Both the position numbers and the translations under genes were made by a program. Of a DNA stretch of 33,415 nucleotides, positions 4,013 to 32,768 are shown piece by piece. Each line of letters begins with the position of its first letter. The stretch's first letter is position 1. The DNA is taken from positions 1 to 33,415 of the forward strand of contig JASEJC010000005.1 in the NCBI GenBank assembly GCA_030016755.1, given 5' to 3'. Below the pieces are notes generated by a model that worked only from the letters and a program-made list of their open reading frames with translations, did not search any database and had not been told where the DNA came from. This stretch comes from Candidatus Hodarchaeaceae archaeon (lineage in GTDB: Archaea; Hadarchaeota; Hadarchaeia; Hadarchaeales; Hadarchaeaceae).

Positions 4013-4213
4013 GTGACAGAGCTGAGACCGATTCGTTGTTTTACTTGTGGTAAGCTACTCGCTGACAAGTACGAGCAATTCGAGGAGCGCGTCAAGAAAG
4101 GCGAGGAGCCAAAAAAAGTGTTGGACGACCTCGAGCTCAAGCGCTACTGTTGCAGGGCTGCGCTGCTCACAAGCGTAGATTTCATGGACGAGATAGCAAA
4201 GTTCAAGAAATAA
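4013..4213 (+). CDS. rpoN: DNA-directed RNA polymerase subunit N (Rpb10 homologue)
   Basis: 66 residues, the normal size. Small zinc-binding assembly subunit of archaeal RNA polymerase. The four zinc cysteines are visible: CFTC near residue 9 and the paired CC in YCCRAALL. The open frame extends upstream to 3968, overlapping uS9, but the GTG at 4013 directly after the uS9 stop, with AGGTAAG in front, gives the family N-terminus. Last gene of the ribosomal block; RuBisCO starts 12 nt later. Confidence 0.94.
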   Translation: MTELRPIRCFTCGKLLADKYEQFEERVKKGEEPKKVLDDLELKRYCCRAALLTSVDFMDEIAKFKK

Positions 4214-15627: not shown

Positions 15628-15700
15628 ATCTTTAAGAGTTAGAAAATCCAAATCTATTTGGTCCCGCGGTAACTCAGCCTGGTTAGAGTGGTCGGCTGTT

Positions 15701-15731
15701 CGCCGCGTGGCGGGCCAAAGACCCAGGCCGA
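15701..15731 (+). other. Putative tRNA-Asn intron 1 (anticodon loop, ~31 nt)
   Basis: Lies between GTT of the anticodon and AACCGAC. Contains hairpin CGCC (15701-15704)/GGCG (15709-15712). Deduced from the tRNA fold; boundaries may shift by one base (canonical 37/38 position would leave C at 37). Confidence 0.65.
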
Positions 15732-15740
15732 AACCGACAG

Positions 15741-15775
15741 GATTTCGAGATACAAAATCTCAAATCCCAGGAAAT
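15741..15775 (+). other. Putative tRNA-Asn intron 2 (variable loop, ~35 nt)
   Basis: About 35 nt must be removed between the anticodon and T arms to give variable loop AGGTC; the cut may be one base either way because a G occurs at both ends. An internal hairpin GAGAT (15747-15751)/ATCTC (15757-15761) is clear, as is an ATTTC/GAAAT pairing nearer the ends. Confidence 0.6.
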
Positions 15776-15844
15776 GTCGCCGGTTCAAATCCGGCCCGCG
15801 GGACCACCTAGCAAGCCTTTAAACCAAAGGAAACAAAGATTGTT

Positions 15845-15968
15845 TGGTTGGCGGCCATAGCGGTGGGGAAACACCCGGTCTCGTCCGATCCCGGAAGTTA
15901 AGCCCACCAGCGATCTGGACTGTACTGTGTTCCGAGAGGGCACGGGAACTCCAGGACGCTGCCAACCA
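15845..15968 (+). rRNA. rrf: 5S ribosomal RNA
   Basis: About 124 nt. Ends pair as helix I (TGGTTGGC at 15845-15852 with GCCAACCA at 15961-15968). Conserved internal blocks: GGGGAAACACCCGGTCTCGT, CCGATCCCGGAAGTTAAGCCC and TACTGTGTTCCGAGAGG. No 16S or 23S in this window, so the 5S gene is unlinked from them here. TATA-like CCTTTAAACC at about 15814-15823 gives a well-placed promoter. Confidence 0.93.
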
Positions 15969-16011: not shown

Positions 16012-16111
16012 GCCCTGGTGGTGTAGCCCGGTCTAACATGCAGGCCTGTCGAGCCTGCGCCTCGGGTTCAAATCCCGGCCAAGGAGTTAAACGCTCCGCC
16101 GATGGGCGCCA
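16012..16111 (+). tRNA. tRNA-Asp (GTC) with an intron in the acceptor stem, CCA encoded
   Basis: Acceptor 5' GCCCTGG, D-arm GTGT/ACAT, anticodon stem CAGGC/GCCTG with loop CTGTCGA (GTC), T-arm TCGGG-TTCAAAT-CCCGG, then only CCA of the 3' acceptor strand. The remaining GGGC, discriminator G and CCA follow 22 nt later at 16104-16111. Joining CCA to GGGC restores seven perfect acceptor pairs and the GCCA end typical of archaeal tRNA-Asp. The interruption forms a bulge-helix-bulge (see intron entry). Confidence 0.9.
16082..16103 (+). other. 22-nt tRNA-Asp intron between positions 68 and 69
   Basis: Bulge-helix-bulge by eye: inner helix GGAG/CTCC with loop TTAAACG, 3-nt bulge CAA, 4-bp helix CGGC/GCCG, 3-nt bulge ATG. 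The archaeal splicing endonuclease cuts after the second base of each bulge (CA^A and AT^G), which gives exactly the boundaries needed to restore the acceptor stem. Confidence 0.85.
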
Positions 16112-16860: not shown

Positions 16861-16935
16861 GGGCCCGTAGCGCAGTCTGGTTAGCGCACCGGCCTTTTAA
16901 GCCGGGTGTCGCGGGTTCGAATCCCGCCGGGCCCG
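16861..16935 (+). tRNA. tRNA-Lys (TTT)
   Basis: Acceptor GGGCCCG/CGGGCCC, D-stem GCGC/GCGC, anticodon stem CCGGC/GCCGG with loop CTTTTAA (anticodon TTT), T-arm GCGGG-TTCGAAT-CCCGC, discriminator G; CCA not encoded. No intron. Confidence 0.96.
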
Positions 16936-32696: not shown

Positions 32697-32768
32697 TGGG
32701 GCGCCTGGAAATCGAACCCAGACCTCCTAGGTGCCAGACCAGGGGTGCTACCATTACACCAATGCCCC
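32697..32768 (-). tRNA. tRNA-like gene, anticodon unresolved (possibly degenerate)
   Basis: Minus strand. Acceptor GGGGCAT/GCGCCCC (five pairs, one A-C mismatch, one G-U), D-arm GTGT-AATGGTA-GCAC, T-arm CTGGG-TTCGATT-TCCAG, discriminator A, CCA not encoded. The anticodon arm is poor: CCTGG/CTAGG pairs only if the loop has 8 nt (TCTGGCAC), and no reading puts U at 33 next to a sensible anticodon with a good stem. The D-arm recalls tRNA-Gln or tRNA-Gly. It may be a pseudo-tRNA or have unusual processing. Confidence 0.6.

Follow-up and report, generated by a model that had tools for sequence, protein, structure and literature searches.

Evidence for a short bulge-helix-bulge intron in the 3′ acceptor strand of a hadarchaeal tRNA-Asp

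The comparative evidence assembled here strongly supports a bulge-helix-bulge (BHB) intron between nucleotides 68 and 69 of tRNA-Asp(GTC) in an uncultured subsurface hadarchaeon that belongs to the same family as its nearest relatives, among them G008, G015, and G011. The window, the whole 33,415-nucleotide stretch of DNA that was analyzed, corresponds to contig C55 in an assembly (G000) of 834 kb that is 87% complete, and direct reading of positions 16012–16111 gives a tRNA-Asp(GTC) gene with a 22-nt intron at 16082–16103 (Table 1). The 5′ exon terminates in ..TCCCGGCCA, with A68 at 16081, and removal of the 22 nt allows GCCCTGG to pair with CCA-GGGC at 7/7 positions and restores G73 and CCA, the full set of acceptor pairs being possible only without these 22 nt; the predicted spliced junction is ..CCCGGCCA-GGGCGCCA. 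A first-pass annotation had proposed an intron of this length at 68/69 in the 3′ acceptor strand, with cuts leaving the bases for seven acceptor pairs, and both points were confirmed by the sequence, the former also by 19 other genomes with an intron at the same site. Its expectation that simple scans would stumble was likewise borne out, as ARAGORN and Rfam place a poor acceptor end at 16087 and 16086, and Rfam scores the unspliced gene at 41.3 bits versus 55.0 bits for an intronless orthologue. The analysis demonstrates the sequence, structure, empty site, covariation, and distribution of the intron; its transcription, cutting, and ligation and the order of splicing and end processing are inferred. 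We hold it highly probable that the tRNA-Asp precursor carries a short archaeal BHB intron within the 3′ strand of its acceptor stem and that EndA and a ligase splice it.

Table 1 Features of the tRNA-Asp locus and its cluster (positions in the window)
Feature	Position	Strand	Remark
tRNA-Tyr(GTA), several introns	15663..15806	+	Upstream, same cluster; relative called tRNA-Tyr by ARAGORN
5S rRNA	15847..15967	+	Same cluster
tRNA-Asp(GTC) 5′ exon, nt 1–68	16012..16081	+	Acceptor 5′ strand GCCCTGG through CCA 66–68
BHB central helix, exon strand CGGC (nt 63–66)	16076..16079	+	Pairs with 16098–16101
5′ bulge CA^A	16080..16082	+	Predicted cut after 16081
Intron AGGAGTTAAACGCTCCGCCGAT, 22 nt, between 68 and 69	16082..16103	+	Missing from intronless orthologue G006
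Intron inner stem-loop GGAGT/GCTCC	16083..16097	+	Re-paired AGGCA/TGCCT in G015, G011
BHB central helix, intron strand GCCG	16098..16101	+	GGCG where exon is CGCC; GTCG in G015
3′ bulge AT^G	16102..16104	+	Predicted cut after 16103
3′ exon GGGC (69–72) + G73 + encoded CCA	16104..16111	+	
tRNA-Lys(TTT), intronless	16861..16935	+	Same cluster

The intron flanks form a strict BHB, CGGC-CA^A-GGAG..CTCC-GCCG-AT^G, with a 4-bp central helix and two 3-nt bulges, each with its predicted cut after the second bulge nucleotide, in agreement with the textbook structure claimed in the annotation. When the 80 nt that follow A68 were shuffled 200,000 times with dinucleotides preserved, GGGC-N-CCA arose at 10–60 nt in 1,119 shuffles; 21 also had the central helix in its correct place, and 2 had both the central and the inner helix. 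The BHB motif alone is weak evidence because one further, meaningless BHB turned up when positions 16012–16111 (100 nt) were scanned for strict BHBs, and folding energy was dropped as evidence since the stretch did not fold significantly better than shuffled sequences (precursor z −1.2). A group I or group II intron was ruled out by length. It is the comparative sequence data, rather than the motif, that settle the case.

Introns at the same site, which the annotation had suggested looking for in related genomes, were found in three other Hadarchaeota, with lengths of 21 nt in G008 (Ca. Hadarchaeum yellowstonense YNP_45), 20 nt in G015 (Hadesarchaea MAG B75_G9), and 18 nt in G011 (Hadesarchaea MAG UWMA-0211), and in all three the acceptor stem re-pairs after excision. 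Among the hadarchaeal introns, the inner stem shifts from GGAG/CTCC to AGGCA/TGCCT with the pairing kept. The empty site is present in G006, whose intronless orthologue is 99% identical over 73 aligned nt and reads CCCGGCCAGGGCG, exactly the predicted spliced product. Other Hadarchaeota have no tRNA-Asp intron (G003, G004, G007, G012, G014, G018, G020, and G021), a D-loop intron instead (G010, G017, and G023–G026; loci L070–L075), or an anticodon-loop insertion (G001). In an RpoB tree, the four 68/69 carriers lie inside one supported clade (97/99) together with G013 and the intronless G006, and a clade of the four carriers alone was rejected (p-AU 5.7e-07). Since G006 nests among the carriers, the simplest history is one gain followed by one precise loss, while two gains would also be compatible with the tree.

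A scan of 84,980 genomes, in which the pattern CCA...GGGCG was required, showed that archaeon RBG_16_50_20, which is unclassified at NCBI, likewise has a genuine intron at 68/69. In the group of this archaeon and its surroundings, at least 16 of 401 genomes carry such an intron, counting only candidates that survived reading; the counts are lower bounds because tRNAs with other acceptor sequences escape the pattern. Position 68/69 is unusual, as the annotation had stated, but its rarity was overstated, given that the site recurs in two archaeal lineages. The central helix of the BHB keeps 4/4 pairs in 19 of the 20 introns, with one mismatch in G456. In four genomes of the RBG_16_50_20 group, the exon reads CGCC for CGGC, and in every case the intron matches the change with GGCG for GCCG; covariation of exon and intron this good arose in 18 of 100,000 shuffles, in a test that ignores kinship among the sequences. 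The pattern hits in G021, G094, G196, G555, G506, G734, G726, and at L127/L128 were rejected, the tRNA being intact or unrelated and GGGCG lying downstream by chance. One of these, the tRNA-Asp at L127 (Woesearchaeota, 4095–4200), has an intact acceptor and an apparent D-loop insertion (around CTCCTCTCCGAGGAGCAGCAG).

The poor acceptor end reported by the general tools could also indicate a truncated pseudogene, with a decayed acceptor and another intact tRNA-Asp gene supplying the cell, and in an incomplete assembly this second gene could be missing. However, excision of the 22 nt leaves a complete seven-pair acceptor and CCA, four genomes from a single clade preserve both the site and the structure while only the stem sequence changes, and does so in concert, and the check for another tRNA-Asp gene that the annotation had proposed yielded a single tRNA-Asp(GTC) locus in the 87%-complete assembly, all of which makes decay of the gene extremely improbable. 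We give just as little credence to a tRNA that matures without splicing, in which GCCCTGG would pair with CCAAGGA as an alternative acceptor and the remainder would be trailer. Direct reading and the ARAGORN call allow 5/7 of these pairs in this genome, but G015 and G011 do not keep this pairing (CCAAAGG), and 20/20 genomes retain a downstream GGGC-G with CCA after it (CTA in three).

With a spliced intron as the preferred reading, a further alternative concerns the history of the intron and not its reality, namely that Hadarchaeota and the RBG_16_50_20 lineage share a single 68/69 intron, acquired by inheritance (or lateral movement), and not separate insertions. The identical site, the same bulge CA^N, and a GCCGA ending common to many members point to a single origin, whereas within Hadarchaeota the intron is limited to one supported clade, other families having D-loop, anticodon, or no introns, and the GCCG ending is set by the exon. 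We consider a single origin less probable than separate insertions.

A similar intron is present in the same genome in tRNA-Glu(CTC) (L024, G000:C60:429-539), which has two introns, one of them in the D-loop. This D-loop intron, AGGAG[ATGAA]CTCCGCCGAT in the exon context CCGGTCA, and the tRNA-Asp intron, AGGAG[TTAAACG]CTCCGCCGAT in the context CCGGCCA, are identical outside the loops, and among 28 genomes the shared pattern was found elsewhere only in the tRNA-Asp of G008. The likeness suggests that the two introns may be related by intron transposition; a single pair could also arise by chance. Near-identical introns in different tRNAs and at different positions also characterize the transposition described in Thermoproteales (PMC4033280 and PMC4090602), in contrast to which the present phylum lies outside Thermoproteales and only one pair was found.

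The gene is part of a cluster with the order tRNA-Tyr, 5S rRNA, tRNA-Asp, tRNA-Lys, and then RNA polymerase subunit B (the subunit named from sequence), and G015 keeps the order of the three tRNA genes with the same polymerase gene directly after. The tRNA-Tyr(GTA) gene, missed at 15663–15806 by ARAGORN and Rfam, contains two introns, one of 19 nt at 15700–15718 between nt 35 and 36 with a strict BHB (GGCT-GT^T..GGCC-AA^A) and one of about 12 nt at about 15721–15732 near 37/38. Its variable region holds a third insertion, about 35 nt long, for which the BHB scan found no strict BHB restoring a tRNA. Locus L131 of the same genome (G000:C28:3150-3550, minus strand) holds a tRNA-His(GTG), absent from the Rfam list for this genome, whose T-loop is interrupted by a 21-nt intron of the 59/60 type that has a strict BHB, TTCA-AA^T..TGAA-AT^T. 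On the minus strand of the window, positions 32697–32768 resemble the body of a glycine tRNA, but the anticodon loop (TCTGGCAC, 8 nt) is anomalous, CCA is not encoded, and ARAGORN makes no assignment; this element may be a pseudogene, an odd tRNA, or an integration scar. The tRNA annotation of such genomes will list damaged or missing tRNAs.

EndA of Hadarchaeota is encoded by one gene per genome in most, is ~180 aa long (183 aa in G008) with N- and C-terminal domains, and can be aligned with M. jannaschii EndA over the full length. Such full-length matches were obtained in most Hadarchaeota, including the intron carriers G008 and G015, and EndA was not found in G000 (87% complete) or G011, both incomplete assemblies. 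The 9-residue insertion of A. pernix EndA is absent from the aligned hadarchaeal proteins, and no second subunit was found in Hadarchaeota, with one match per genome. In its single gene of ~180 aa, its two domains, and its full-length match, the enzyme resembles the M. jannaschii-type alpha4 EndA (PDB 1a79), without the Crenarchaea-specific or ARMAN-specific loops tied to relaxed specificity and with an oligomeric state that is predicted. Alpha4 EndA counts as an enzyme of narrow specificity (PMC6379350), one not usually tied to introns scattered over the tRNA; the hadarchaeal introns do keep a strict BHB, which fits the expected need of a narrow-specificity enzyme. In the RBG_16_50_20 group, most members checked have two EndA genes, and the two catalytic subunits that were read both have the Crenarchaea-specific loop (FGKPVGIPKPKPGEDF) described in PMC12397907. 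Given the two EndA types in the two lineages, the one intron site exists under two endonuclease regimes.

In the splicing pathway proposed here, nt 63–66 (CGGC) and the intron GCCG would pair into the strict BHB before the acceptor/T-stem helix forms, EndA would cut within each of the two 3-nt bulges (CCA^A and AT^G), and the RNA ligase, which in archaea is RtcB, would join CCA to GGGC. The product would be a normal tRNA-Asp, complete with its seven acceptor pairs, G73, and CCA. T-stem nt 63–65 and acceptor nt 66 make up the exon strand of the BHB, so that the BHB and the finished T-stem/acceptor are mutually exclusive, both using nt 63–66, while acceptor pairs 1–4/69–72 are possible in either form. 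Predicted folding slightly favors the BHB form at 37 °C (−39.7 versus −37.0 kcal/mol) but not at 80 °C, and the predicted pair probability of the BHB, which competes with the T-stem, falls from about 0.6 at 37 °C to about 0.3 at the higher temperature. RNase P and tRNase Z recognize the acceptor stem and T-arm, and since they read the acceptor/T-stem helix, splicing probably comes first for the 68/69 intron, ahead of final end processing; the annotation's argument that the two steps need an order is reasonable. Both orders are described for other tRNAs: in the alga C. merolae, a T-loop intron is removed before acceptor end processing (PMC3978253), and in M. kandleri, tRNA ends are trimmed before intron removal (PMC3695527). 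The M. kandleri order should be impossible or inefficient here, as an acceptor-strand intron, unlike a loop intron, would not be tolerable to the end-processing enzymes, and the tRNA-Asp thus offers a natural test of processing order.

Acceptor-stem introns are already listed for Crenarchaeota (PMC3978253; also PMC12397907), and PMC4090602 names an intron at position 3/4 as an extreme case. The non-canonical introns of Crenarchaeota and Thermoproteales (3/4, 20/21, 45/46, 59/60, etc.; PMC4090602 and PMC3978253) are similarly short, have a junction BHB, and lie away from 37/38; the present intron differs in being hadarchaeal and in its location at 68/69, on the 3′ side of the acceptor stem. No mention of 68/69 introns or of hadarchaeal tRNA introns was found in the texts searched, which did not extend to the figure lists or the primary position tables (Sugahara 2008, 2009). 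The present case extends the acceptor-stem introns reported for Crenarchaeota to a new phylum, at a site that recurs, and probably with splicing as the first step. We advance only tentatively, as a possibility short of a probability, that tRNA-Asp 68/69 may be a site where mobile BHB introns of one family have landed repeatedly, in two or more archaeal lineages. By splitting the acceptor helix, such an intron would force splicing to precede charging and the action of RNase P and tRNase Z, opposite to the order measured in Methanopyrus kandleri, and it would do so in a phylum, Hadarchaeota, whose EndA has none of the loops presumed necessary for scattered introns. Hadarchaeota combine introns at several unusual tRNA sites with a compact alpha-only EndA, a combination relevant to the proposal that intron positions and endonuclease type have evolved together.
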